The position numbers were made by a program, and so were the translations under genes. From Planctomycetota bacterium (GTDB lineage: Bacteria > Planctomycetota > Phycisphaerae > Tepidisphaerales > Tepidisphaeraceae), in NCBI GenBank assembly GCA_039182125.1, contig JBCDCH010000008.1, forward strand, positions 1 to 64,000: a DNA stretch of 64,000 bases, read 5' to 3'. The notes under the pieces were generated by a model. It did no database searches. It was not told the DNA's origin and was given only the letters and a program-made list of their open reading frames with translations. Below, one piece after another: positions 11,121-35,207 of this stretch; within the stretch, counting starts at the first letter, position 1; every line of letters starts with the position of its first letter.

Positions 11121-11267
11121 GCACGCACGCTAACGGGAAGCATCAGCGTCGTCGACGCATGGCGAATCCGCCAAACGTCACACTTGGTGGTGACTGACGT
11201 GATCTCTATGACAGTGACAACGTCGGATTAGTAAGAGAATTGCCCATTCTGGTATTGTTTGCGTGTG

Positions 11268-12044
11268 ATGCGAGTTGCTAAGTTTCTCAGCAATTCAAAA
11301 AACCAAAAGGGCCACATGCTCGCAACGCTTGAACAACGGCGTCTTCTCAGCGGCACCGTCGTCACCATCACCACGCCCGATCACGCCGTCACCGAGGGTG
11401 AACTCATCACTTTCGAAGTCCAACGTACCGGCGATCTCGGCGAAGCACTCACGCTGGACGTGGAACTGACCGGCACCGCCACGCCGGGCGTCGATACGAT
11501 GATCCCGGACGGGTCGCTGACCTTCGCCCCCGGCGAAGACACGGCGACTTTCTCGCTGGCGGCGTTGCCGGACGGAAATGCCGAGGTGACCGAGAACCTC
11601 GTGGCGCGAGTGGACACTACTGTTGAGATGGACGTCCTGATTGATCGCGGGAACATTGAGGTGATGGTCGATGACCCGGTGGGTGATGGGGAGCAACCGG
11701 TGCCGAACGCGCAACCGGAATGGGCCGAGTTTGACGAGGATCTTGGCGAACCTGATTTCGGCGAAGGTATTGCGCCTTTCTTTGCGTTGCCATTTTTCGG
11801 AGACTGGATACTCCCTGAAGACATTGATGATGACGAATTGCCGGTCAACGGCGGTGCCACCCTCGGAGGGGATATCGTTATTCGGCTACCTGGCCCAGAT
11901 GACGGTGAGACGACTTCGATCTTCATCCCAGGCGGGTCCAATATCCGAATTGTAATCACTGAAGCAGGCGTGCGTTGGATTGCTGGGGTAAGGGCACCCG
12001 AAGGGTCTGGGGGCGTGGTCATAACCACCGAGCAAACTGTTTAG
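11268..12044 (+). CDS. Calx-beta domain secreted protein with LExRxLLS N-terminus
   Basis: About 258 aa. The N-terminus contains LEQRRLLSG, the LEPR-XLL-type motif common at the start of planctomycete surface proteins. A single Calx-beta repeat follows (ITFEVQRTGDLGEALTLDVELTGTAT ... GSLTFAPGEDTATFSL), a calcium-binding beta-sandwich of surface and adhesion proteins. The last 110 residues are acidic (DDDELP) and unassigned. I prefer the ATG at 11268; TTG 11259 and GTG 11265 are in frame just upstream, and ATG 11316 would start right at the motif. Base composition falls toward 50 % GC in the second half, opening an AT-rich island. Confidence 0.7.
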   Translation: MRVAKFLSNSKNQKGHMLATLEQRRLLSGTVVTITTPDHAVTEGELITFEVQRTGDLGEALTLDVELTGTATPGVDTMIPDGSLTFAPGEDTATFSLAALPDGNAEVTENLVARVDTTVEMDVLIDRGNIEVMVDDPVGDGEQPVPNAQPEWAEFDEDLGEPDFGEGIAPFFALPFFGDWILPEDIDDDELPVNGGATLGGDIVIRLPGPDDGETTSIFIPGGSNIRIVITEAGVRWIAGVRAPEGSGGVVITTEQTV

Positions 12045-19686: not shown

Positions 19687-19816
19687 GGCAACACGGTAGC
19701 GCGATTCGAAGAAAATTCGCTTGGACGGAAATAGTTCGAACGGTCGGCGCGTTTCCACTTCCAGCACGGCGTCACCCGACGCGAATCTCACGAACCACCT
19801 TGGAAAGGAACCACCC

Positions 19817-20629
19817 ATGCAGCCCATGGAACAGCTCGAACTGCGCAAACTCCTCTCGGCCAATCTCAGCGATGCCGGCGTGCTCCGCGTCGTCGGTGAC
19901 GAAGGCGTCGACAACGTCATCAGCGTCTCGCTCTTGGAGGACCCGGCCGGCGGGCCGGACGTCCAGCCCACCGCCATCGTGACGATCAACGGCACCGAGG
20001 AACTGCGTGCGCCTGCCGAGGACATCCGTCGCGTTTACGTTCACGGCCGTGACGGCAACGACACGATCGACGTCGCCGCCATCGGCCGACTCACCCGCGT
20101 CTTCGGCTGGGGTGGTGATGACACAATCACCGCCGAGTCGCGCAGTATCCAACGTGGCGGCGCCGGCAACGACGTGCTCAACGGTTCCGACGCCCGCGAC
20201 TTCCTCGGCGGCTCCATCGGCGACGACACTCTCAACGGCAACGGCGGCAACGATTACATGAAGGGCTCCGACGGCAACGATGAGATGAACGGCGGCGACG
20301 GACGCGACCTCATGCTCGGCGGCGGCGGAGACGACGTCATGTCCGGCGGCCTTGGCAACGACCTGCTCATCGGCAGCCTCGGCGACGACCTGCTCAACGG
20401 TGACGACGGCGACGACAAGCTCTTCGGCGGGCCCGGCACCGACACGCTCAACGGCGGCAGTGGTGCCGATGACCTCTTCGGCGGTAACGAGAGCGAAGAC
20501 GACGATGAAGACACCCTCAACGCTGGCGGTGACGAGGGCGACAGCGAATCGCTCGACGGCGTGACCGATCCGCAACCCGGTGGCGGCCGCGGCCTCCGCG
20601 GCCTCTGGGGCGGACGCCCGGGTCGCTGA
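19817..20629 (+). CDS. RTX-repeat calcium-binding protein with LExRxLLS N-terminus
   Basis: 270 aa. The N-terminus (MEQLELRKLLSANLS) is a variant of the planctomycete LEPR-XLL motif. From about residue 95 the protein consists of RTX nonapeptides (GGxGNDxLx type): GGAGNDVLNGSDARDFLGG, NGNGGNDYMKGSDGNDEM and so on, forming a calcium-filled beta-roll. The tail is acidic, then Gly/Arg-rich. Surface exposure or secretion by a type I route is expected for RTX proteins; no ABC exporter is nearby. ATG 19817 follows GGAAAGGA with good spacing. Monocistronic, with a terminator at 20655-20689. Confidence 0.85.
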   Translation: MQPMEQLELRKLLSANLSDAGVLRVVGDEGVDNVISVSLLEDPAGGPDVQPTAIVTINGTEELRAPAEDIRRVYVHGRDGNDTIDVAAIGRLTRVFGWGGDDTITAESRSIQRGGAGNDVLNGSDARDFLGGSIGDDTLNGNGGNDYMKGSDGNDEMNGGDGRDLMLGGGGDDVMSGGLGNDLLIGSLGDDLLNGDDGDDKLFGGPGTDTLNGGSGADDLFGGNESEDDDEDTLNAGGDEGDSESLDGVTDPQPGGGRGLRGLWGGRPGR

Positions 20630-20746: not shown

Positions 20747-21949
20747 GTGGCAATCGACTGGCAAGAGATCCGACAGCGCTTCGTGCCCTTCGACGGTCAC
20801 TACCTCGACGGCAACTCGCTGGGGCTTTGCACGAAGGCATCGGCGGAGCAGGCCAAACTTGTGCTTCATGAGTGGCAAACGCTCGGCATCGGCGGCTGGT
20901 TCGGCGCGGACCCGCCGTGGCTGCGGATGTCTCGTGAGGGCGGTGCGCTATGTGCCCCGATCGTCGGTGCGGAGCCGAGCCGCGTGATCGCCACCGGGAG
21001 CACCACGGCCAACCTGCACCAGGGATTGGCGACGTTTTACAAGCCGACACCGCAGCGAGATCGCATCGTCATCGACGACGGCTGCTTTCCCACCGACGGC
21101 TACGCAGTGCAGAGCCATCTGCGGATGCGTGGCTTGCCGAGCTCGGCGTTGGAGCGTGTGCCGATGCGTGGCGATTTGTTCGAGGAGGAAGACCTGATCG
21201 CGGCCATCGAGTCGGACGGTGTCGCGCTTGCGGTGTTGCCGGTGGTGGTGTTTTCTACCGGGCAACTGATCGATGTCGAGCGCGTGCAATCGGCAGCGAC
21301 GGCGGCGGGGGTGACCGTGCTTTGGGATGCGTCGCATGCGGCCGGTTCGGTGCCGATGCGGCTTGATGATTGGGGTTGCGAGTACGCGTTCTGGTGCGGC
21401 TATAAGTACCTCAACGGCGGCCCAGGCTGCGTGGCGTTCGCCTACCTACGCGAAGCGCTCGAGCCGGGGATGGCGGGGTGGTTCGGGTCGAGTGACGAGG
21501 CGTTGTTCGACATGCCGAGCGAGTTGCGACCGGCTGACGGTGCGGCGCGGTTGCAGCAGGGGACGCCGCACATGCTGTCGCTCGCGCCGTTGCTCGGATC
21601 GTTGTCCGGCTTCCCAGCGATTGGCGAAGTTCGCCAGCGTTCGTTGGAGCTGACCGGTCATCTGCTCGACCGGCTCGACGACACACTCGCCGCACATGGG
21701 TTTGGCACCGCGACGCCACGCGATCCGAGCCGTCGAGGCGGGCATGTATCGCTACGGCATCCCGATGCCGAGCGCTTGGTTCACGCGTTGGCGAAGATGA
21801 ACATCGTCACCGATTATCGTCGCCCGGACCTCATACGCGTCGCACCGGTCGCGTTGTACAACGACGAGCCGGACGTGGATGCCGTGGTGGAGGCGCTCGT
21901 GAAGTTGACGTCAACGCCCACGGCTTCAGCCGTGGGTCGGCGAGCGTGA
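20747..21949 (+). CDS. kynU: Kynureninase
   Basis: 400-aa PLP enzyme cleaving kynurenine to anthranilate and alanine (or 3-hydroxykynurenine to 3-hydroxyanthranilate). Family marks: YLDGNSLGLCTKAS near residue 20, TGSTTANLHQGLATFY, LWDASHAAGSVPM, and the PLP-lysine block WCGYKYLNGGPG, then QQGTPHMLSLAPL. Start is the GTG at 20747. The last residues (TPTASAVGR) come from a palindromic repeat (21917-21936) that runs into the 3' end of the gene, so the C-terminus is probably recently altered. Followed 50 bases later by the formamidase gene, the preceding step of tryptophan breakdown. Confidence 0.93.
   Translation: MAIDWQEIRQRFVPFDGHYLDGNSLGLCTKASAEQAKLVLHEWQTLGIGGWFGADPPWLRMSREGGALCAPIVGAEPSRVIATGSTTANLHQGLATFYKPTPQRDRIVIDDGCFPTDGYAVQSHLRMRGLPSSALERVPMRGDLFEEEDLIAAIESDGVALAVLPVVVFSTGQLIDVERVQSAATAAGVTVLWDASHAAGSVPMRLDDWGCEYAFWCGYKYLNGGPGCVAFAYLREALEPGMAGWFGSSDEALFDMPSELRPADGAARLQQGTPHMLSLAPLLGSLSGFPAIGEVRQRSLELTGHLLDRLDDTLAAHGFGTATPRDPSRRGGHVSLRHPDAERLVHALAKMNIVTDYRRPDLIRVAPVALYNDEPDVDAVVEALVKLTSTPTASAVGRRA
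21917..21936. repeat. CCCACG palindrome inside the 3' end of kynU
   Basis: CCCACGGC-TTCA-GCCGTGGG, an 8-bp stem with a TTCA loop, followed by TC. The same 20 bases occur at 50363-50382. Here the element is read as codons for the kynureninase C-terminus. Confidence 0.8.
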
Positions 21950-21999
21950 CCGAATCCCGACGCACGCTTGAAGACTTGGGCGTTAGATAGGATCAACTC

Positions 22000-22545
22000 A
22001 TGCCACTGATCGACATCACCCGCCCGCTCTCGGCCGGCACCGCCGCATGGCCCGGCGACACCCCGACGACGCTGACTCGCAACGCGGCGCTGGCCGACGG
22101 CGCGAGCGTGAACCTCTCGTCGATCACGGCGAGTGTTCACAACGCCACGCACGTCGATGCACCGTTGCACTACGACGACGCCGGCTGCGGGATCGAAGGG
22201 CTCGACTTGGACCTGTACCTCGGCGAATGCGAAGTCGTCGACGTGGTCGGGCACGACCCGATCTTGCCGGAGCATCTGCCGATCGACCTGCCGCCGCGCG
22301 TGTTGCTCAAAACCGGTGGCTGGCCCGAAAGCGGGACGTTTCCGAACGACGTTCCGAGCGTCGACAAGCCGACGAGCAAGACCCTTCCCATTCATCACGC
22401 CATCCATGCGGCTGGCCTTCGCATCCTCGAAAGCTTCGATCTCGCCAATGTCGAAGCGGGCCGGTATGAGCTGATCGCGTTGCCGATTCTGATTCCGGGC
22501 AGCGACGGCGCGTTTGTCCGGGCAGTATTGCGTCACTCGCCGTAA
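22000..22545 (+). CDS. kynB: Kynurenine formamidase (cyclase family)
   Basis: 181-aa metal-dependent hydrolase converting N-formylkynurenine to kynurenine and formate. The family zinc motif is intact: HNATHVDAPLH gives His47, His51, Asp53 and His57; the N-terminal DITRPLSAGTAAWPGD and the later DVPSVDKP, LPIHHAIHAAG blocks fit KynB. It is somewhat shorter than typical members of about 210 aa because loops are trimmed. With kynU it forms a two-step tryptophan-catabolic pair; tryptophan dioxygenase is not in the window. Convergent with the glucan synthase gene. Confidence 0.88.
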   Translation: MPLIDITRPLSAGTAAWPGDTPTTLTRNAALADGASVNLSSITASVHNATHVDAPLHYDDAGCGIEGLDLDLYLGECEVVDVVGHDPILPEHLPIDLPPRVLLKTGGWPESGTFPNDVPSVDKPTSKTLPIHHAIHAAGLRILESFDLANVEAGRYELIALPILIPGSDGAFVRAVLRHSP

Positions 22546-22596: not shown

Positions 22597-25500
22597 TTAA
22601 AGCTCGACCGTGATCTCGTGATCGTGGCGGTCGTCGCATAGCGGGACGTGCAAATCGTCCTGTTCAACGCCATCGACGGTGACACGGGTGACCAGGCCGG
22701 AGTTGTGGTTGATGATGTTGATGTGGTGGAAGGTTTCGCGGAAGCGGTAGTGGAGTTTGAAGCCGCCCCATTCCGGCGGGAGCAGCGGGTTGAACTCGAG
22801 GCGGTCGACGCGGAGCTTGATGCCCAGGAGGGACTCGGTGATGAGCCGGTAGAGCCAGCCGGCCGAGCCGGTGTACCACGTCCAGCCGCCGCGGCCGACG
22901 TGGGGGTTCACGCCGTAGACGTCCGCGGCGCAGACATACGGCTCGACCTTGTACTTGGCCATGCTGTTGGCATCGAGCGCGTGGTTGATCGGGTTGATGA
23001 GCCGTTGCAGCTCCCACGCCCGGCCGGCGTCGCGCATCTCGGCGAACGCCATCACCGTCCACACGGCGGCATGCGTGTACTGCCCGCCGTTCTCGCGGAC
23101 GCCGGGCAGGTAGCCCTTGATGTAGCCCGGGTCGGCCCCCTCGCGCACCTCGGCGTCGTCGAAAGGCGGATCGAACAGTTGGATGAGCCCCGCGTCACGC
23201 CGCACGAGCCGATGGTCGACCGCGCTCATCGCCTGCGTGGCCCGCTCGGGATCGGTCTCGCCGACGAGGATCGCCCACGACTGCGGCAGCGAGTCGATCT
23301 GGCATTCGGTGTTCTCCGACGAGCCCAGCGGCGAGCCGTCGTCGAAGTAGGCACGCCGGTACCAGTCGCCGTCCCACGCGTTGGCCTCGACGTTGGCCTT
23401 GAGCGTGTCGATGTGTTCGAGGCAATGGTCGGCAAACTCGACATCGCCACGCTCGCGGGCGATCGGCTCGAAGTCGCGTAGCACCTGCATCAGGAAGAAC
23501 GCCATCCACACCGACTCGCCCTTGCCGTGCTCGCCGACGAGGTTCATGCCGTCGTTCCAGTCGCCGCAACCGATCAGCGGCAGGCCGTTGCGTCCGTAGC
23601 CGCGGTTGACGGTGGCGTTGCGGATCGAGCGTTTGCAGTGCTCGTAGATCGACACCGATTCGTCGCCGCGCGGGAAGAGGTCGTAGATCGACTCCTGATC
23701 CGGCGGTACCGGCGGCCCGGTGAGCATCGGGACGGCTTCGTCGAGGACGCCGGTGTCGCCGAGGGTGCGGACGTAGCGGGCGGTGACCAGCGGCAGCCAG
23801 AGGTAGTCGTCGGAGAAGTGTGTGCGCACCCCGCGGCCGGTAGGCGGGTGCCACCAGTGTTGCACGTCGCCTTCGACGAACTGATGAGCGGCGGCGCGAA
23901 GGATGTGCTCGCGGGTCGTCTCGGGCGCACAGTGAATCAACGCGGCCACGTCCTGCAACTGATCACGAAAGCCGTACGCACCGCCGGACTGGTAGTACCC
24001 GCTGCGGCCCCAATAGCGACACGAGAGCACCTGGTACGGCAGCCACCAGTTGACGAGGAACTCCACGGCCTTGTCCGGCGTCTCGACATGCACCGCGCCG
24101 AGCGTGTGGTTCCAGTAATCCCAGACCTGCTGGAGCGCGTCCTTGGAGGCGGTGTTGCCGCGGAAGCGCTTGAGCAGTTCGCGGGCGTCGTTGCGGTTCT
24201 GGCCGGAGCCGAGGACGAAGGTGACGGTCACCTCCTCGCCGTCGGCAAGGTCCATCGGGGTGCGGATGGCGGCGCACGGGTCGAGGCCGGCGCCGACGGT
24301 GCCGGAGAGTTTGGTCCGCGCGAGGGCGGCGGGCGCGGCGGGTGAGCCGTTGCGGCCGAGGAACTCCGTGCGGTCGCCGGTGAAGGATTTGCGCTGCGCC
24401 GAGCAATGGAAGAAAGACACGCGCGGGCCGAAGTCGGTGTTGTAGGCGTTGCGGGCCAGCACCGCGCCGGTGGTCGGGTCGAGCTCGGTGACGACGTGGG
24501 TCGCGGACTTCTGCCGGAACTCGCCTAGGCACCACTCGACGTAGCCGGTGAGGCTGATGCGTCGGTCGCGGCCGCTGTCGTTGCGGATCTTGATGCGGGT
24601 GAACTTCACCGGCGCGTCGGTCGCGACGTAGGTCCACATCTCGGAGTTGATGCCCGACTCGGTGTAGTCGAAAACGGTGTACCCGAAGCCGTGGCGGGTC
24701 GTGTACGGCATCGACCCGCTCGCCGGCAGCGGCGTGGGTGACCAGACCCGGCCGCTCTCCTCGTCGCGCAGGTAGAACGCCTCGCCGGACGCATCGGTGA
24801 CCGGGTCGTTGTACCACGGGGTCAGCCGGTACTCGTGGGCGTTTTCGCACCAGGTGTAGCTTCCGCCGGATTCACTGACGATGCAGCCGAAGTGCGGGTT
24901 GGCCAGCACGTTGATCCACGGCGCGGGGGTGACCTTCGCGCTGCGGGCGGCACCGGGGGAGGCGTTGATGATGTACTCGCGACCGTCGGACGTGAACCCG
25001 CCAATGCCGTTGTAGAACATCAGGTCGCGGCGTGGTAGTTCGCTGGCGGTCATCACCTCGCGCCGCCGGGCACGGGTCGGCACAAACTTGGGCATCGTGA
25101 ACTGGCCCCGGCCGCGGCGTTCGATCTGTTCCTCCAGCGTGCCCGCCGTGTCGATGAGCACGACGCGGGCGACGGTCTTGAGCAGGGTGCGGTCTTCCTC
25201 GGACATCTGGTCCGAGCGGCGTATGAAGATGCCGCCGGGCTTGTCGATCTGGCCGGCCTCGGTCGTGGAGTTGACGATGCCGACGACCGCGTCGTGGAGT
25301 TCATCGCGATAGCCGCCGGCGTCTTCGTTGAGAATGACCAGGTCGACGTCGAGCCCCTTGCGCCGGAAGTAGGCGTGGGCCTGCACCAACTGCTTGACGA
25401 GTTTGAGATTGTCACGATCGGTCAATCGCAGGAGGACGATCGGGCGGTCGCCGGAGATGCCGTAGCCCCAGAGACCGTTCTGGCCGCGGGTGTTGGCGGC

Positions 25501-28500
25501 GATCGTGTCGCCGTCGGCCCGGCGTCGGCCCGAGGCGTATACCACGCTCCCGGCCAGCCGGGCGTACAACTGCGCGTCGACCTCGGTGATGTTGAGCTGT
25601 TGAAGCACCACCTGCGAGTGCGTCCACGCCAGATCACCCACGCGGTCGGCGAGTCGGCGGTCGTGGTACTTTTCGACGAGTGACAGCGCGGTTTCACGCG
25701 TCGACGCGCAGCCGGTGATGACATCGACGATGACGGTCTGCCCGGGTTCGAGGATGACCTTGCGGCGGACCGCGACACAGGGATCGAGCACGCTGCCTTC
25801 GGAGTCGCCGAGGCTGGGCACATCGAGCGCGGCCGGGTCCGAGGCATCGCGGCAGCGCCCGAGAAACGCACTACGGTCGGTCTCGTAGGTCGTGCTGCCG
25901 ACGGTCGCGCCGTGGACGGCCATCAGATGCAGCATCGTCGGCGGATGGTCGTCGGCCTGCCGCGGACGCCGCTTGACGAGGATCGCGCAGCGGTTGCGGA
26001 TCAGCTCGGTCTGGATGAACAGGTTGCTGAACGTCGGGTGTGCCGCCTCGGCCGCCGGCTGGTTGAGCACGACCTCGGCGAAGCTGGTGACCTCGACGGT
26101 GCGGCGTTGCTTGCCGCCGTTGCACAGCGACACGCGGCGGAGTTCGACGTCGTCCTCGGGGCTGACGACGACGGTGGTGTGCGTCTCGATGTCGCCGTCA
26201 CGTCGGCGGTACTCGGCGCGGGCCTGGCTGAAGACGGCTTCGTAGTGCTGCGGCGACTTCTGCGAGGGCTGGTGCGCGGCTGTCCACCAGTCGCCGGCGG
26301 TCGTGTCGCGCAGGTAGATGAACGTGCCGTGATGATCACGCGTCGCGTCCTCCCGCCAACGGGTCAGGGCCAGATCCTTCCATCGCGACACGCCACCACC
26401 GGCTGCGGTGACCATGCAGTTGTAGGTGCCGTTGGAGAGCAGGTGAACTTCGGGCGTGGTGGTCGCGGGGTTCTGGAAAACGCGCAGGGTGCCGCCGAAG
26501 TTCTCGCCGCCGCGTCGTTGCGGCTCGTCGGCCTCGGCCGGGTGCGGATACACCGGTGCACTGCGCGGCGTCTTCTCCTGCAACAGCAAATCGACCGATC
26601 GCAACTGCGGGTCCGCCAGGAATCGCCGCTGCATCGGCGTGCCCTTGAGCAGGTACAGCAGCGACAGGAACGACATGCCTGAGTGGTGCGCCATCCACGA
26701 ACGCACGACGGCCTTGTCCTGACCGCGCGGGATCCGACTCGGCGTGAAGTCGACGGCTTCAAAGAACCCGCAACGACCCAGCAGGCCACGCTCGCGCATG
26801 TCCTTGAGGTTCGCGGTCGCGGAAGCTGCGTCGACCATGAGCGCCATGACGGTTGCGTAGGGCGCGATGACCAGGTCTTGCCCGAGGCCGCGCTTGAAGC
26901 CCAGGCCGGGCACGCCGAAGGGGCGGTACTGAAAGTTGAGGTTCGCGTCGGTGGCGTAGTAGCCGGACTCGGACACGCCCCAGGGCACGCCGCGTTGGTT
27001 GCCGTAGTCGATCTGCCGCGAGACAGTGCCTTGGTACGTTTGATCCAGCAGCGTGCCTTCGTAGGTCGGCATCACCAGCAACGGCATGAGGTACTCGAAC
27101 ATGCTGCCCGACCACGAGAGCAACGTCGGCGCGCCGCTCGTCGAGGTCACCTGGCGCCCCAGCGCGAACCAGTGCTCCTGCGAGAGCTGGCCGGTGGCGA
27201 TCGCGTAGTAGCTGGCCAGACGTGCTTCGGAGGCGAGCAGGTCGTAGTAGCTCGCATCGAGCCGACGCTCCTGCGCGTTGTAGCCGATGGCGAAGAGGTC
27301 GCGCGTCTCGTCCCAGAGGAACTTGTAATCGGCGTCGGCGAAGTCGATGCACAGGTCCGCCAGCCGACGCAGCTCGGCCGAGAGTTCGTCGTCCTCGGCG
27401 ATCGTCGGCATCTTGTCCGCGCCGGCCGGCGGGAGGTCGTGCACGATCGAGAGCGCCTGGTGCTGCAACGCTGCGGCCCAGTAACCGGTCTCGGTCGAAA
27501 CGTCGTCGGCGACCTCCATCGCTTGGCTCGCGAGGCCGACGATCAACTCGGCGATGGCCCGCATCTCGCTCGGTGTCCGGATGTTCGCCGCCGGGGGGAT
27601 CGCCGACTTGAGCTTGGACAGCAGCTCAGGCGGCAACTCGATCCGCGCCGCCGGCTCGCCGTCCTCCGGCTCGGCCAGCGCGTCGGTGCCGTCGGCGGCG
27701 GCGATGAGCAGGTCGGCCGTGTCGGAAAGCCCGTCGAAGCGTTGCTGCCCGACCACCGGCGCGGCGGCGATCTCGAGCAGCCCTTGTCGCAGCGTGAGCA
27801 GCGCACCGCTGAGGTTGCCCGAGTCGACGGTCGAGACGTACGCCGGCGGCAGCGGGGCGAGGCTCTGCGTGTCGTACCAGTTGTAGAGGTGTCCACGAAA
27901 CCGGTCGAGTTTGCCCAGCGTGTCGAAGGTATTTCCGCAACGCTCGGCGACGGCGGCGGCACCGATGTAACCGAAGTCGTGGGCCGCGACGTTGGCCAGC
28001 AGGCTCAGCCCAATGTTCGTCGGCGACGTGCGATGGGCGATGCCGACGGCGGGGTGTTCCTGGAAGTTGTCGGGCGGGAGCCAGTGATCCTCGTCGGTGA
28101 CGTGGTCCTCGAAGAACCGCCAGGTGCGACGCGAGAGTTGGCGAAGGAACGACCAGTCGGAAGGCGAGAGTTCGACGTCTTTGTCAGCGGGGGCTTTGCT
28201 GACGAACCACGCGGCGATCGGTGCCAGGGCCCAGAGCAAGAGGATCGGCAGTGCCACGAGCAAGGCGTCGGGGTTGGCCGCGAGGATCAGGCCCAAGGCA
28301 AACAACGCAACCCATGCACCGGTCTGCATGGATGCGATGAAGCCCGGCAGGTCTGCCTTGGCCTTGCGCGCCGCGTCGGTCGACGTTTGCCACTGCAGCA
28401 GATTCTTCTTCGAGACATGCACCCGCCAAAGCGTCCGGCCGATGGCGTCGAGATTCAGCATCGCCTCGAACGGCAGCACGAGAAAGTTCAACGTCGAGCG

Positions 28501-31212
28501 GCCAAGGTTTCGCAGCAAGGCGATGGCCCGCAGTCTCAGGTGCATCGTCAGCGGCAACTCCCGGTCGATGTCGAAGACCATCCCGAGAATCCCGTCGAGC
28601 AACGGCGGCACGAACACGAAGCCGAGCACCAACAACGTCCACGCAACCGGCGCACCGCTGAGCCAACCACAAAGCAGGATCAGCACCAACGCGATCGGCA
28701 CCAACGACCGGCGCAGGTTGTCGAAGATTTTCCAGCGGTTGAGCCCGTTGATGACGTTGGGCCGACTGCCGTCAGGGTGGGGAACCTTGAAGAACGCCCA
28801 CGGCGCGATCTGCCAGTCGCCGCGCACCCACCGATGTCGCCGGGCGGCATCGACGAGGTAGCTCGCCGGGTAGTCCTCGAAGACTTGCACGTCGCTGACC
28901 AGACCGCTGCGGACATGGGCACCTTCGAGGAGGTCGTGTGAGAGGATGCGGTTGGCCGGGAGGCGGTCGCCGAGGACGCGCTTGAACACGTCGACGTCGT
29001 AGATGCCCTTGCCGATGAACGAGCCTTCGCGGAAGACGTCCTGATACACGTCGGAGACGGCGTTGGTGTACGGATCAACGCCCGGCTCGCCGGCGAAGAG
29101 TTCGATGAACCACGTGCGCGGCGCGCCGCCCATCGCGATCGAAGCGCGGGGCTGAAGCAATCCGTAGCCGTCGACTACCCGGTTGGTTTGTTCGTCGATG
29201 ACCGGCTTGTTGAGCGGATGGGCCATCGTGCCGACCAACTGCCGGGCCGCGTCGCGCGGCAGCATGGTGTCGGCGTCGAGCGCGATGACATACTTGATCG
29301 ACGAAAGCACCGAGCGGTCGCCGACGATCTCGCTGAACCGGTCGGCCGCGCCTTCCTCTTCACGCAGCAGGTCGTTGAAGTCCTCAAGTTTGCCGCGCTT
29401 GCGCTCCTCGCCCATCCAGCAATGCTGCTGCGGGTTCCACAGGCGGGGTCGGTGCAGTAGGAGGAACTTGTCGGAGCCGTAGGTTTTGTTGAGCAGCCGG
29501 ATGCCGTCGGCGGCTTGCTTGAGCAGTGTGTCGTCCTGTTCCTTCGACTCGGTTTCGCAGTCGCCGAAGTCGCTGAGCAGGGCGAAATGAACGTTGGCAT
29601 CGCGGTTGGCGAGGTGGCGAACTTCGAGGTTGTCGAGTAGCTCGCGGACGCCGTCGGTGCTGGTGATCATGCACGGCACGGCAACGATCGCGCGGCACTC
29701 GGACGGGATGCCGGCCGAATAGTCCAACCTTGGCAGGCGGTTCGGGCCGACCAGGCGGGTGCAGATCCAGTTGATCGTCGCGACGCCGAGTTGGCTGGTC
29801 GCGATGAGCAACGGCACCGCCGCGACCAACGCCAACCAGAACGCCGACCGCGTCGCGATCGTCCACCCGGCAACGGCGAACGTCACCAGCAGCGCCGTGC
29901 CGATCACGCCGAGCAGGAACAGCGTCACCGCATGGTCACGCCCGAACCGCCGCAGCTTGGTGACCGCGCCCAACTCGACGCCGGTGCGCAGTTCGAGCCG
30001 TTCGAGGCCGTCGTCGATCAGGTGAAAGCCGACGTGCGACTTCTTGGACGTCGGCGGTTCCGACTTGGCCAGGGAAATCGCCAACTCGGCGACATCGAGT
30101 TCGGGCTTGCGGCTCCGCTTGGCCGACTGTTCGATGACGTGGCGGTATCGGTCACGCGTGGTGAAGTCCTGCAGCGCATGGGTCTCTGCCGGGTCGCGCT
30201 GCAGCGCCTTCTCGACGATGCTGTGCTGCTCGACGAAGTCCTTCCAGTCGATGGCCGAGAGATGCCGCAGCGAGCCGATGGAGTTGCCGATCGAGACCTG
30301 GTCGGCGGCCTGCTCCTGGCTGTCGGTCTGGACGAGTTGTTCGATGTTCAGGCCGCGCTCGCCGAGACGTTCTTCGAGCCACCGCAGCGGCAAGGTCATC
30401 CGGCTGCCGGCGGCCTGCATGCGGCGGGAGAACTCCGCCGTGAACGCCGGCGACAGGTCCGGCCGATCGCGAACCATGTTCGCCAATGCCAACAACACAC
30501 CGTCGGGCTTCTCCGCGCCGATCGACGTCATCGACTCGGCCCAGTCGAACGCGCGGTCCCGGTCCTGTTGGCTCGTGGCGATCCGGGCGGCGACGCGGCG
30601 GAGGTTCTCGATCAGCGCGAGCCGAAGCATGATCGGCACCGCCCAGATCTCGCCGAGCTTCAGCGGCGTGACGTGTTGGTAGCTGGCGACGAAAGCGCCC
30701 AGCGACTCGCCGTCGATGCGGCCGTCGATGTGGCTGATCAGTTCCAGCGCGATGTCGTAAACCCGCGGAAAACCCTTGCTCGGTCCGGCGGCGAGCTTGG
30801 TCAGCTCCCGGCTGTAACCCTTGGGCAGGTGACGCCGCGAGATGCGGAACTGCTCCTCGATGAGGTAGAAGTTGTCGATGAGCCATTCGGCGGCGGGGGT
30901 GATGCGCCGGTTGGCCTCGGCGGCTTCGTTGACGATCTCGTAGGCCCCGAGCAGGACCTGCTCGTTCTCGTCGAGGCGCGGCAGCAGATGGTCGGAGCCG
31001 ATGGCGTCGATGGCTTCGTGGCGCTCGGCGAGTTGGTGGGCGTGATGTTCGAGTTGATCGACGCTGAGCAGGTCGCGGCGCAGCGGCTGTTCGTCCATCG
31101 GGGCCGGCTCGATCGCGTCGTGCCCGGGGAGTCTGATAAAACCGCGAATACGTTGCTTGTGCTTCAAGGTGGGTTTGCTGAAATGGTCGTGTGAAAGGGA
31201 GGCTCGCGTCAC
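22597..31212 (-). CDS. Cyclic beta-1,2-glucan synthase (NdvB/Cgs type)
   Basis: 2871 aa, matching the length of Brucella Cgs. Domains in order: a soluble N-terminal region; GT84 transferase between membrane helices, with [11 protein letters not shown] near residue 643 and the QxxRW-like [10 protein letters not shown] near 792; further helices to about 1000; a glycoamylase-like/GH189-type region ([13 protein letters not shown] near 1117) that cyclises the chain in known enzymes; and a long C-terminal GH94 phosphorylase part with the [11 protein letters not shown] catalytic-Asp motif near 2550. It would elongate a beta-1,2-glucan on itself, trim it and release a cyclic product. GTG 31212 gives the longest start; ATG 31098 is a good alternative. 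Divergent from the sugar cluster. Confidence 0.9.
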
Positions 31213-31321: not shown

Positions 31322-32581
31322 ATGACCATCTCCGCCCCGTCAAACTCGCCGTCCGTCGCGTTGACGTGCCGTCATTGCGCCGCGCCGTTGAGCCGGACGT
31401 TTGTCGATCTGGGCGTCACGCCGTTGTGCCAGCGGCACGTCACGCCCGAGAACTTTCAGGTCGCCGAGCCGACGTATCCGCTGCGGGCGTTTGTCTGCGA
31501 CAAGTGCAAGCTCGTCCAGTTACCCGACCACGTTGCGCCCGATGAGATCTTCAACGAGGACTACGCCTACTTCTCCAGCTTCAGCACCAGCTGGCTGGAG
31601 CATGCGCGGAAGTACGCCGTGGACATGACAGGGCGGTTCGGGTTAGGCCGGGACAGCATGGTCATGGAGGCGGCGAGCAACGACGGGTACCTGTTGCGGC
31701 ACTTCGCCGAGGCGGGGATTCCGGTTCATGGCATCGAGCCCAGCGGCAACACCGCCGAGGCCGCCGAGAAGGTCGGGGTTCCAACGACCGTCGCGTTCCT
31801 CGGGGCCGAGACGGCGGCTCAGATCGTCGGTCGCGTCGGCAAAGCCGACCTCGTCGCGGCGAACAACGTCATCGGCCACGTGCCGAACCTCAATGACTTC
31901 TGCGCCGGCCTCGCCGGGCTGATCAAGCCGACCGGCGTCGTCACCGTCGAGATACCGCACATCCTGAACCTCATCGAGAACAACCAGTTCGACACGATCT
32001 ACCACGAGCACTGGCAGTACTACTGGTTCACGACGCTGTGCCGAGTTCTGGCGACGGCGGGGCTGGAGGTGTTCGACGTCGAGGAGCTGCCGACGCACGG
32101 CGGGTCGATGCGCGTCTTCGCTGGGATGCCGGGGCAACACGAAATCAACGCCGGCGTCGGCGAGATGTGCAAGCGCGAAGTTGCCTTCGGCATGGATGAC
32201 CCGACGCTCTACGCCGAGTTCGGCGAGAAGGTCCGCGAGACCAAGCGCAAGCTGCTCACGTTCCTCATCGACGCCAAGCGGGCCGGCAAGACCGTCGTTG
32301 GCTACGGCGCGCCGGGTAAGGGCAACACGCTCCTCAACTACTGCGGCATCGGCACCGACTTCATCGACTACACGGTCGACCGATCCCCTCACAAGCAGGG
32401 CAACTATCTCCCTGGCAGCCGCATCCCCATCCACGCCCCGGAGATGATCGAGCAGACCAAGCCGGACTATGTGCTGATCTTGCCGTGGAACTTGAAGAAC
32501 GAGATCGCCGAGCAGATGAGCGTGGTCCGCGAGTGGGGCGGGCAGTTCGTGGTGCCGATCCCGGAAGTGAGCGTGTTTTGA
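31322..32581 (+). CDS. NDP-sugar C-methyltransferase-like protein
   Basis: 419 aa with the three-part layout of sugar C-methyltransferases (TylC3/NovU type). An N-terminal zinc-ribbon has paired cysteines (CRHC ... LCQRH ... CDKCKLVQL). The SAM domain follows (MVMEAASNDGYLLRHFAEAG, then NNVIGHVPNLNDF and the active-site-like IYHEHWQYY). The C-terminal domain has VVGYGAPGKGNTLLNYCGI and PWNLKNEI. The zinc domain and HEHxxY support C-methylation of a deoxy- or keto-sugar; the substrate is unknown. ATG 31322 excludes a long unconserved extension. First of a tight four-gene plus-strand cluster. Confidence 0.85.
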   Translation: MTISAPSNSPSVALTCRHCAAPLSRTFVDLGVTPLCQRHVTPENFQVAEPTYPLRAFVCDKCKLVQLPDHVAPDEIFNEDYAYFSSFSTSWLEHARKYAVDMTGRFGLGRDSMVMEAASNDGYLLRHFAEAGIPVHGIEPSGNTAEAAEKVGVPTTVAFLGAETAAQIVGRVGKADLVAANNVIGHVPNLNDFCAGLAGLIKPTGVVTVEIPHILNLIENNQFDTIYHEHWQYYWFTTLCRVLATAGLEVFDVEELPTHGGSMRVFAGMPGQHEINAGVGEMCKREVAFGMDDPTLYAEFGEKVRETKRKLLTFLIDAKRAGKTVVGYGAPGKGNTLLNYCGIGTDFIDYTVDRSPHKQGNYLPGSRIPIHAPEMIEQTKPDYVLILPWNLKNEIAEQMSVVREWGGQFVVPIPEVSVF

Positions 32582-32597
32582 TGATGGAGCTGATGCG

Positions 32598-33410
32598 ATG
32601 AAAGTGGTTCTCTTTTGCGGCGGTCAGGGGCTTCGGCTTCGGGAGTACTCCGACCGCGTACCCAAACCGATGGTGCCCGTCGGCCCCCGGCCGATCATGT
32701 GGCATTTGATGAAGTACTACGCGCACTTCGGCCACACCGACTTCATCCTCGCACTCGGCCACCAGGGCGAAGTGATCAAGGACTACTTCCTCAACTACAA
32801 CGAGGCGGCCAGCAACGACTTCATCCTCCACGGCGGCAGCAAGGACGGCGACCGGCGCGGACGCAACGTCGAGATGCTCGGCCGGGATATCGACAACTGG
32901 ACGATCACCTTCGTCGACACCGGCCTCAAGGCCAACATCGGCGAGCGACTCTGTGCGGTCCGCGAACACCTCGGCACCGACGAGTGGTTCCTCGCCAACT
33001 ACTCCGACAACCTCAGCGATGTCGATCTGCCGGACATGATCGAACGGGCCAAGCGGAAGGACATGACCGCGACGTTCGCCGCCGTCTACCCGGCCCAAAC
33101 GTTTCACACCGTCGCGTACGACCACGACGGCACGGTCAGCGACATCAGCGATGTTCGGCAGCGCGACTTGCGGATCAACGGCGGCTTCTTCGTGCTCAAC
33201 CAACGCGTCTTCGACGTCATCGAGCCTGGCGAGGAACTCGTGCTCGAGCCGTTCGGTCGACTGATCCAGCAGAAGAAACTCAAGGCTTACCAGCACCCCG
33301 GCTTCTGGGCCGCGATGGACACGTTCAAGGAGAAGATGGCCCTCGACGACATGGTCACCGAAGGCGTAGCGCCGTGGGAAGTGTGGAAGAAGGGGGACGG
33401 CAGGTGCTGA
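32598..33410 (+). CDS. Sugar-1-phosphate cytidylyltransferase (RfbF-like)
   Basis: 270-aa nucleotidyltransferase with the RfbF pattern. Nucleotide-binding loop CGGQGLRLREYSDRVPKPMVPVGPRPIMWHLMKYY, then LGHQGEVIKDYF, the metal-binding YSDNLSDVDL (YGDGVAD in RfbF), INGGFFVLNQRVFDVI and HPGFWAAMDTFKEK. RfbF makes CDP-glucose from CTP and glucose-1-phosphate. The specificity for CTP and glucose is inferred from the subfamily. It follows the methyltransferase by 16 bases and supplies the activated sugar for the cluster. Confidence 0.85.
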   Translation: MKVVLFCGGQGLRLREYSDRVPKPMVPVGPRPIMWHLMKYYAHFGHTDFILALGHQGEVIKDYFLNYNEAASNDFILHGGSKDGDRRGRNVEMLGRDIDNWTITFVDTGLKANIGERLCAVREHLGTDEWFLANYSDNLSDVDLPDMIERAKRKDMTATFAAVYPAQTFHTVAYDHDGTVSDISDVRQRDLRINGGFFVLNQRVFDVIEPGEELVLEPFGRLIQQKKLKAYQHPGFWAAMDTFKEKMALDDMVTEGVAPWEVWKKGDGRC

Positions 33411-33427
33411 GTCCGTGCTTCTTACTT

Positions 33428-33535
33428 CCTGTCATCCCGAGCGCAGCCGAGGGATCTAGCTTCCGCGGCCGGTTGCACCCGGTTGACCGCCCGGCGTCCG
33501 AGGCCAGATCCCTCGACTCCGCTTGGGATGACAGG
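33428..33535. repeat. 108-bp imperfect inverted-repeat element
   Basis: Two 30-base arms, 33428-33457 and 33506-33535, match at 27 of 30 positions when inverted (both arms carry CCTGTCATCCC and GAGGGATCT). The 48-base centre is unrelated. It resembles MITE/REP-like interspersed repeats that start TCATCCCGAGC. Its right end carries AGGAGG, the ribosome site of the next gene. Confidence 0.85.
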
Positions 33536-33545
33536 AGGGGTGAGC

Positions 33546-34169
33546 GTGATTAGCACCAACCTCCTCTCAAACGTCCGCTCGGTGCTTTGCCTTGGCGCCC
33601 ACTCCGACGACATCGAGATCGGTGCGGGCGGGACGATCCTGCGGCTGCTCGCCGAGTCGCCGAACGTTGCCGTGACGTGGTGCGTGTTCAGCGGCAACGA
33701 GCAACGACACGCCGAGGCCAAGGCGTCGGCCGCCGACTACGCGCCGAACGCCGACGTACGCTGCTTCGGCTTCCGCGACGGCTTCTTCCCGCAACAGCAC
33801 GCCGCGATCAAGGATGAGTTCGAGAAGCTCAAAGACGACTACGACTTGATCCTCACGCACCGCCTCGACGACGCCCATCAGGATCATCGCGTGCTGGCCG
33901 AGCTTGCGTGGAACACCTTTCGATCGCACCTCATCCTGCAGTACGAAATCCCCAAATGGGACGGCGACCTCGCGACGCCCAACGGGTATGTGCATCTCGA
34001 ACCCGATGTCGCGGATCGCAAGTGTGAACTGCTGATGAAACACTTCGGCACGCAGCGGTCCAAGCACTGGTTTGACGAAGAAACGTTCAAGTCGCTGATG
34101 CGTTTGCGCGGCCTGGAAAGCAATGCCCGTTACGCGGAGGGTTTTCACCTGCGCAAGTTGGTTTTGTAA
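33546..34169 (+). CDS. PIG-L family deacetylase
   Basis: 207-aa LmbE/PIG-L hydrolase, a zinc enzyme that removes N-acetyl groups from amino sugars. The zinc motif is AHSDD (His19, Asp21, Asp22; AHPDD in most members), followed by IGAGGTI, SGNEQR, and the second metal motif THRLDDAHQDHR. GTG 33546 is chosen because AGGAGG (33533-33538) stands seven bases before it; ATG 33528 lies inside the repeat element and lacks a ribosome site. In context it probably deacetylates a nucleotide- or lipid-linked amino sugar. Confidence 0.87.
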   Translation: MISTNLLSNVRSVLCLGAHSDDIEIGAGGTILRLLAESPNVAVTWCVFSGNEQRHAEAKASAADYAPNADVRCFGFRDGFFPQQHAAIKDEFEKLKDDYDLILTHRLDDAHQDHRVLAELAWNTFRSHLILQYEIPKWDGDLATPNGYVHLEPDVADRKCELLMKHFGTQRSKHWFDEETFKSLMRLRGLESNARYAEGFHLRKLVL

Positions 34170-34178
34170 GGAAATACC

Positions 34179-35207
34179 ATGAAAGTTCTCGTCACCGGCC
34201 ACACCGGTTACATCGGATCGCTGCTCGTGCCCATGCTCCTCGACGAAGGGCATGACGTGACCGGCTATGACTGCGACTACTACGCGGGCTGCACGTTCAC
34301 CGGCGAACTCGCCGACGTGCCGGCCATCACGAAGGACGTCCGCGATTGCACCGTCGATGACGTTCGTGGCTTCGATGCCGTGCTGCATCTGGCGGCACTC
34401 TCGAACGATCCGCTTGGGCACATCAATCCGGACTTGACCGACGACATCAATCACCGTGCGTCGGTCCGCATTGCGGAGTGTTGCAAAGAGGCCGGCGTCG
34501 AGCGGTACGTGTTTTCGTCGAGCTGTTCCAACTACGGGGCCGGCGGTGAAGGTGCGCTGACCGAGGAGAGCGACCTCAACCCGGTCACGCCGTACGGCCA
34601 GAGCAAGGTCGACACCGAGCGCGACGTCGCCCCGATGGCGGACGCCAACTTCTGCCCGACGTTCCTGCGTAACGCGACGGCCTACGGCCTGACGCCGCGG
34701 CTGCGGTTCGATTTGGTGGTGAACAATCTCACCGCCTACGCCGTCGCGATCGGTGAGGTCCGGCTTAAGTCCGACGGCACCGCCTGGCGGCCGTTGGTCC
34801 ACGCCGCCGACATCGCCCATGCGTTCATCTGTACGCTCAACACGCCGGCCGACAAGCTCCGCGGCGAGGCGTTCAACATCGCCCCGCGTAACAGCAACTA
34901 CCAGATCCGCGACGTGGCCAACATCGTGTCGGAGGTGACTCGCTGTGGCGTGACCTTCGCCGACGGGGCCGACAGCGACACGCGGAACTACCAGGTCGAC
35001 GTAAGCAAGGCGTACGACACGTTGGTCGGCTTCGCGCCCAAGCACGACGTGGCCAGCGGGGTGCGGGAACTGCTCGACGTGTATCGCGGGGTCGGGCTGA
35101 CGGTGGAAGACTTCGAGGGGCCGAAGTACAAGCGGGTGAGCCGGGTGAAGGCGCTGATCGACGAGGGGAAACTGGATGAGTCACTGCGTTTCGGCACACT
35201 CGCTTGA
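34179..35207 (+). CDS. NAD-dependent sugar epimerase/dehydratase (extended SDR)
   Basis: 342 aa. Rossmann dinucleotide loop TGHTGYIGS (Gly7, Gly10, Gly13), [19 protein letters not shown], the catalytic YGQSK pair, and [19 protein letters not shown] are all standard for nucleotide-sugar epimerases and dehydratases. SNYG and the C-terminal [14 protein letters not shown] are close to enzymes found beside CDP-sugar and methyltransferase genes. Whether it epimerises, reduces or dehydrates is not decided. It is nine bases after the PIG-L gene, hence one operon. Convergent with the GH57 gene. Confidence 0.87.

Follow-up and report, generated by a model that had tools for sequence, protein, structure and literature searches.

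A Four-Gene Planctomycete Operon as the Putative Core of a Modular Route to a CDP-Activated, C-Methyl-Branched Sugar

Introduction

A 64,000-nt stretch of DNA from a Planctomycetota bacterium (GCA_039182125.1, contig JBCDCH010000008.1, positions 1-64,000; hereafter the window) carries an operon encoding a C-methyltransferase (CMT), a cytidylyltransferase (CYT), a PIG-L family protein and an extended short-chain dehydrogenase/reductase (SDR). On balance, and with modest confidence, we read this operon as the core of a modular pathway leading to a cytidine diphosphate (CDP)-activated, C-methyl-branched, probably amino sugar for a surface glycan. The reading is built on protein families, folds, catalytic motifs, gene linkage and co-occurrence at the genome level, from which the chemistry is deduced. 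A first-pass annotation of the window had already placed the four genes next to each other, and they are indeed found as four plus-strand frames with which the Pfam assignments agree:

31322..32581, + strand: C-methyltransferase (CMT), 419 aa; Pfam Methyltransf_13 and Methyltransf_14
32598..33410, + strand: cytidylyltransferase (CYT); Pfam NTP_transferase, RfbF fold
~33546..34169, + strand: PIG-L family protein, ~207 aa; PF02585; GTG start with a Shine-Dalgarno sequence at 33533-33538
34179..35207, + strand: extended SDR (epimerase/dehydratase family), 342 aa; PF01370 (Epimerase)

That the product is a CDP-activated, methyl-branched sugar, as the same annotation proposed, is well supported by the families, folds and context.

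A Cytidylyltransferase with a Probably Altered Pocket

CYT (CYTIDYLYLTRANSFERASE) has the RfbF fold, with a model at a predicted local distance difference test (pLDDT) of 90 and with 1tzf as first (E 3e-27) and 1wvc as second match (E 1e-26). Against TIGR02623, the profile of the glucose-1-phosphate cytidylyltransferase RfbF, it scores 216.6 bits, which is under the equivalog cut-off of 300.25. When CYT is aligned to 1tzf, EK (178-179) is replaced by D-V and RFG by T-F-H; EK and R(F/Y)G are presumably parts of the sugar-phosphate pocket of RfbF. The R(F/Y)G motif is absent from all 91 PIG-L-linked CYT members, 88 of which have an aromatic-His motif instead. The EKP pattern occurs in none of the 90 high-scoring members, and their aligned rows, read by eye, are without EK in those columns. 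Among ten comparison loci with an ordinary RfbF, EK is present in nine and R(F/Y)G in eight, and the second cytidylyltransferases of loci L081 and L094 retain EK. After removal of one duplicate row, the PIG-L-linked CYTs form one group in a phylogenetic tree (90/90, support 0.785). As the motif loss runs through this whole clade, it is conserved and does not reflect drift. Judged by its sequence, CYT probably acts on a sugar-1-phosphate other than plain glucose-1-phosphate. The linked PIG-L protein suggests that this substrate is N-acetylated, which is the least secure step of the analysis.

The PIG-L Protein and the C-Methyltransferase

The PIG-L protein matches PF02585 with 52.7 bits and has the conserved motifs AHxDDIEIG and DAHQDHR. 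H18, D20, D21 and H113 are invariant in 34 aligned sequences, and AHxDD...H is taken here to be the metal-binding and catalytic motif of PIG-L proteins. The fold model (pLDDT 93.6) is closest to diacetylchitobiose deacetylase and BshB, followed by glycopeptide deacetylases and MshB; the hydratase GalB is matched as well. From this model, N-deacetylation of a sugar is a plausible predicted activity. Matches on E. coli and Salmonella plasmids (22.7-28.9% identity) were set apart, by identity alone, as a different PIG-L branch.

CMT is composed of a zinc-binding Methyltransf_13 domain (Pfam, 77.1 bits), a methyltransferase domain and a C-terminal Methyltransf_14 domain (218.5 bits). Its YHEH motif, residues 227-230, is conserved at a level of at least 93% in 74 aligned members. 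By its domains, CMT would be a TylCIII-type sugar C-methyltransferase; such enzymes usually act on 4-keto sugars, and CMT would methylate one with S-adenosylmethionine (SAM) as the donor. The nearest solved structures are D-mycarose 3-C-methyltransferase 4rv9 (3e-77), the sugar 3-C-methyltransferase 5t64 and TcaB9 3ndi, which presumably all use nucleoside diphosphate (NDP)-4-keto sugars. As these structures belong to 3-C-methyltransferases, we predict methylation at C3 rather than C5, with C5 methylation of the NovU type as the less favored possibility.

Conservation of the Gene Set in Other Genomes

With a PIG-L alignment as query, GTDB contigs yielded at least 548 confirmed relatives, and the locus counts given here refer to the best 80, chosen by PIG-L alone. 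Besides Alphaproteobacteria, these span Cyanobacteria, Bacteroidetes, Chloroflexi, Kiritimatiellales, Verrucomicrobia, Acidimicrobiia and others. PIG-L is accompanied by CYT in 78 loci, CMT in 58, RfbC in 51, SDR in 50, DUF4910 in 50 and a class-III aminotransferase in 24. Sought in other genomes, as the first-pass annotation had suggested, the set thus proved conserved beyond chance: CYT lies directly upstream of PIG-L in 73/80 loci and CMT directly upstream of CYT in 41/80, an adjacency that rules out chance neighbors. The exact order of the window, CMT-CYT-PIG-L-SDR, recurs in two of the 80 loci and also on plasmids of Streptomyces (L009) and Gordonia (L012); altogether, PIG-L matched 57 plasmid records.

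CMT, CYT and PIG-L stand in this order, with SDR present, in annotated loci of Neorhizobium, Mesorhizobium, Shinella, Qingshengfaniella, Streptomyces and Gordonia. DUF4910 and rfbC are annotated in all six except Gordonia, where a profile does detect an RfbC homologue. The Neorhizobium, Shinella, Streptomyces and Gordonia loci also list the class-III aminotransferase, under the name glutamate-1-semialdehyde aminomutase, and surface-glycan genes flank the set in the rhizobial, Streptomyces and Gordonia loci. A secondary-metabolite cluster was considered and rejected: genes of that kind were not seen around the operon, and exopolysaccharide regions surround several of its relatives.

Some further families were noticed near the set. 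A DRL_cat/SAF oxidoreductase (PF21135) is present in seven PIG-L loci (L019, L022, L038, L047, L073, L089 and L091), six of them without CMT, and perhaps branches or modifies the sugar by another route. Another recurring family, which matches 2OG-Fe(II) oxygenases below threshold, accounts for 10 open reading frames (ORFs) in 9/80 loci, e.g., L071:11665-12567. Among phage records, eight have a CMT match and eight a PIG-L match, all at less than 60% identity; MT837580.1 (6594 bp, human faeces), nominally a phage, has matches to both CMT (29% identity) and PIG-L (48%).

The Rest of the Set and its Co-occurrence

The four genes are not a self-contained pathway, as RfbC, DUF4910 and class-III aminotransferase genes located elsewhere in the genome belong to the conserved set. 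The single DUF4910 gene of the genome lies on contig C119, side by side with an RfbC homologue that exceeds the TIGR01221 cut-off (157.4 vs 155.75 bits). The RfbC residues H62, K72, Y132 and D168 (numbering of locus L005), which we take to be active-site residues, are conserved in 60 members. The class-III aminotransferase is encoded on contig C7, is 54% identical to the protein of the Streptomyces cluster and scores over the NF004856 cut-off; it is surrounded by fliM and unrelated genes. It adjoins a 1062-aa ORF that contains a protein-arginine deiminase domain (PF03068; L131:6027-9215).

Co-occurrence was followed in 61 genomes, i.e., the own genome and 60 relatives, in which PIG-L is bimodally distributed: 10 genomes score at least 231 bits and the next best 49. 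An aminotransferase over the NF004856 cut-off is present in 8/10 PIG-L carriers vs 0/51 other genomes (Fisher p 1.5e-8); counted by genus this is 7/8 vs 0/42, and inside the family 8/10 vs 0/16. DUF4910 is found in 4/10 carriers vs 0/51 others. In these genomes, PIG-L and the aminotransferase sit on separate contigs or are separated by megabases, so their co-occurrence is no by-product of neighborhood.

An Exchangeable, Putatively Ketone-Forming Step

SDR has the motifs SSCSNYG and YxxxK and stays under all 21 listed NCBIfam cut-offs, with GalE as the best (100.2 vs 262.3 bits). A role as 4,6-dehydratase was rejected: every dehydratase cut-off is missed, and at the dehydratase position SSCSNYG takes the place of the Asp-Glu or Asp-Lys pair that presumably marks these enzymes. 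The best solved relative is 6vo6, which we take to be Cj1427, a guanosine diphosphate (GDP)-heptose C4 oxidase, followed by MoeE5 6kv9 and 6wj9/6wjb. By analogy with 6vo6, SDR may yield an NDP-4-keto sugar.

In the whole own genome, no RfbG (CDP-glucose 4,6-dehydratase, TIGR02622) scores over the cut-off of 278.45, the best match reaching 107.7. RfbG is found in 10 of the 61 genomes, three of which are PIG-L carriers, and adjoins PIG-L in all three; over the TIGR02622 cut-off, it adjoins PIG-L in genomes G009, G011 and G015. In the contig scan, RfbG homologues adjoin PIG-L in loci L018 and L021, and in these two as well as in L134 and L135 RfbG directly follows PIG-L in SDR's stead. A third arrangement consists of a nucleotide-sugar dehydrogenase (UGD) and a UXS-like decarboxylase between CMT and CYT, as seen in G005, G007, G013, G023 and L089; in L132, L133, L136 and L137 this pair, in the same position, replaces SDR. 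The UXS-like protein is closest to the human uridine diphosphate (UDP)-glucuronate decarboxylase 2b69 (2.4e-46), and UGD scores over the TIGR03026 cut-off. RfbG or the UGD and UXS pair is near 9/30 loci without SDR vs 1/50 loci with SDR (p 4.5e-4). Sorted over 86 loci, SDR alone is found in 47, UGD and UXS without SDR in eight, RfbG without SDR in seven, overlaps with SDR in three, UXS alone in one and none of these in 20. RfbG and UXS chemistry presumably passes through NDP-4-keto sugars; SDR, RfbG and the UGD and UXS pair are alternatives for one step, all of which can give a 4-keto sugar.

In the phylogenetic trees, the CMT of the window groups with planctomycete loci only, and its PIG-L and CYT group with RfbG-using planctomycete relatives and Bradyrhizobium L034, in the case of CYT together with three actinobacterial loci. 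SDR stands apart, in a group of 36 members with alphaproteobacterial SDRs (support 0.92, with lower values within the group). The operon therefore looks like the lineage's own core in which the ketone-forming step has been exchanged.

Proposed Pathway

In the pathway proposed here, CYT would join cytidine triphosphate and a sugar-1-phosphate, probably not plain glucose-1-phosphate. SDR would then oxidize C4 via bound nicotinamide adenine dinucleotide (NAD), keeping the C6 oxygen, to give a CDP-4-keto sugar. RfbC (C119) would epimerize the position or positions next to the ketone, after which CMT would methylate a carbon adjacent to the ketone, C3 being the likeliest, with SAM as the donor. Reduction of the ketone, perhaps by the same SDR, would follow, so that the predicted order is activation, C4 oxidation, epimerization, C-methylation and reduction. 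Two activities have no fixed point in this order: the class-III aminotransferase (C7) would supply or move an amine, and PIG-L would take off an N-acyl group. DUF4910 (C119) would contribute a step of no assigned chemistry.

Tentatively, and as a possibility rather than an expectation, the operon may represent a widespread and hitherto undescribed class of nucleotide-sugar pathway. CYTs with the altered pocket would activate an N-acylated or amino sugar-1-phosphate, PIG-L would deacylate it, and a swappable ketone step (SDR, RfbG, or UGD with the decarboxylase) would feed CMT, so that one core could lead to hexose, 6-deoxyhexose or pentose C-methyl-branched CDP-amino sugars. If true, Planctomycetes, rhizobia, Cyanobacteria, Bacteroidetes, Chloroflexi and Actinobacteria would share a modular route to unrecognized surface sugars. 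DUF4910 and the PRK06209 'glutamate-1-semialdehyde aminomutase' family would be placed in nucleotide-sugar biosynthesis, and it would be explained why CYTs annotated as glucose-1-phosphate-specific are without the motifs of that activity.

Alternative Explanations

Several observations weigh against the proposed amino-sugar pathway. Two PIG-L carriers of one genus (G007 and G023) are without the aminotransferase, six of the 10 carriers are without DUF4910, and the PIG-L-negative genome G049 has a sub-cut-off aminotransferase match. The 20 of 86 loci without SDR, RfbG, UGD or UXS are explained in part by short contigs (mean 15.2 vs 18.6 kb), and the sugars used by UGD and UXS may be UDP-linked instead of CDP-linked. 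SDR itself is not pathway-specific: it is found (E<=1e-70) in eight of the 61 genomes, two of them PIG-L carriers, and in one of these (G025) it lies on another contig. The locus counts, moreover, come from 80 best PIG-L matches that are rich in Alphaproteobacteria and are not independent. Finally, the hydratase GalB also has the PIG-L fold. The earlier description of the sugar as deacetylated is plausible, the nearest folds being those of GlcNAc deacetylases, but GalB belongs to the same fold.

GalB also lends some weight to a product without nitrogen, i.e., a CDP C-methyl hexose resembling vinelose or virenose, with PIG-L as an esterase or hydratase or acting on another substrate, and with the aminotransferase coming from a co-selected pathway. 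Sets with an ordinary RfbF and without PIG-L do exist, such as rfbF-rfbG-rfbC-CMT in Desulfolutivibrio and CYT-SDR-CMT in S. meliloti. We nevertheless regard such a product as unlikely: PIG-L is the tightest partner of CYT and is retained where CMT is missing, the unlinked aminotransferase tracks PIG-L, and the motif change in CYT coincides exactly with the PIG-L-linked clade. The tightness of the CYT-PIG-L pair can also be turned toward two precursors of one glycan, with CYT, PIG-L and the aminotransferase making a CDP-amino building block and with CMT and SDR modifying another sugar. This would fit the 22/80 loci without CMT at the threshold used and the 6/7 loci that have the DRL-type oxidoreductase and are without CMT. 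It fits less well with the position of CMT directly upstream of CYT in 41/80 loci and with the CMT, CYT and PIG-L trees, which place the window with overlapping planctomycete sets, and its probability is low.

Least probable, at a level that we consider slight, is the view that drift makes a mere variant of the usual CDP-glucose (RfbF/RfbG) pathway look new. The fold and the best sequence match of CYT are those of glucose-1-phosphate cytidylyltransferase, and some relatives have RfbG over its cut-off; against this, the own genome has no RfbG over the cut-off (107.7 vs 278.45), CYT falls under the RfbF cut-off and the RfbF motifs are gone clade-wide.

Locus Layout and Surroundings

CMT and CYT are separated by 16 nt and PIG-L and SDR by 9 nt; the gap of ~135 nt between CYT and PIG-L is occupied by a palindromic repeat:

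33427..33536, no strand: imperfect palindrome, 110 bp, between CYT and PIG-L; 46-nt arms, 83% complementary; dispersed repeat

The repeat has 22 matches on both strands in the genome, several of them being the two strands of one copy. Its right arm extends into the Shine-Dalgarno region of PIG-L, and an effect on PIG-L translation is possible. Read from the sequence, the best PIG-L start is GTG 33546, with AGGAGG (33533-33538) 7 nt upstream; the homologues of L009 and L012 start in a similar register, and a TTG start at 33483 was rejected as it falls inside the repeat. A search around the operon for sigma-70-like promoters, of which chance alone would give 0.5, yielded none; the four genes are presumably transcribed as one unit.

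Upstream, on the opposite strand, lies a single 2871-aa ORF (22597-31212, -) that by eye resembles cyclic beta-1,2-glucan synthase of the NdvB type; downstream are a convergent GH57 protein and an RF-1-like protein. No glycosyltransferase was seen adjoining the operon in the window. Farther away, the window encodes a kynureninase (KYNU_C, Aminotran_5) followed by a 'Putative cyclase' family protein (20747-22545), arranged as in kynurenine degradation, and proteins with Calx-beta and RTX calcium-binding repeats (11259-12044 and 19721-20629).

Comparison with Known Systems

Searches of the open literature, which leaves out most subscription literature, brought up no account of the PIG-L-linked set or of what it makes; already in print are a related set in S. 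meliloti, by annotation, and DUF4910 operons tied to modified surface sugars. The earlier statement that the sugar matches no described product is in this sense sustained, with the reservation that CDP-vinelose is chemically close. CDP-vinelose of Azotobacter vinelandii is, in older literature, reportedly a CDP-linked 6-deoxy-3-C-methyl sugar; we know of no genes for vinelose. Unlike the proposed product, vinelose and virenose are nitrogen-free 6-deoxy-3-C-methyl sugars. For virenose of Coxiella, the proposed route names no PIG-L or aminotransferase in the part of the source available (PMC3539893).

In S. meliloti, SMb21416-SMb21418 are annotated as cytidylyltransferase, CDP-glucose dehydratase and 3-C-methyltransferase (PMC4053727). 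A locus on pSymB (L141), possibly the same one, has CYT, an SDR of the same family (527 bits) and CMT (442 bits) side by side. It differs from the operon in that its CYT retains EKP and R(F/Y)G and in that no PIG-L of the operon's type is nearby (one 34-bit match). In polysaccharide operons with DUF4910 (CA_C2195), a sugar epimerase, a nucleotidyltransferase and a sugar methylase adjoin DUF4910 and a modified surface sugar has been proposed; the main text, as far as available, is without a cytidylyltransferase, deacetylase or aminomutase (PMC4000134). The Anabaena HEP island alr2825-alr2831 resembles the pathway by annotation, with rfbC, an oxidoreductase, an epimerase and a glucose-1-phosphate cytidylyltransferase among its genes (PMC4390870). 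In Nostoc carneum (L071), none of four outer neighbors of the set is a hep gene.

With the antibiotic C-methyltransferases TylCIII, TcaB9, KijD1 and NovU, CMT shares Methyltransf_13, Methyltransf_14 and YHEH. Antibiotic-pathway enzymes use deoxythymidine diphosphate sugars, whereas the partner of CMT in the operon is a cytidylyltransferase and the flanks of its relatives hold polysaccharide genes. The CDP-glucose and CDP-6-deoxyhexose pathways (RfbF, RfbG and RfbC; 3,6-dideoxyhexoses, yersiniose) have in common with the operon an RfbF-fold CYT, a ketone-forming SDR and an RfbC-type epimerase, and some relatives of the operon use RfbG. The operon differs from them by a CYT that scores below the RfbF cut-off and has neither EK nor R(F/Y)G, by a genome without RfbG, and by the addition of PIG-L and a class-III aminotransferase.

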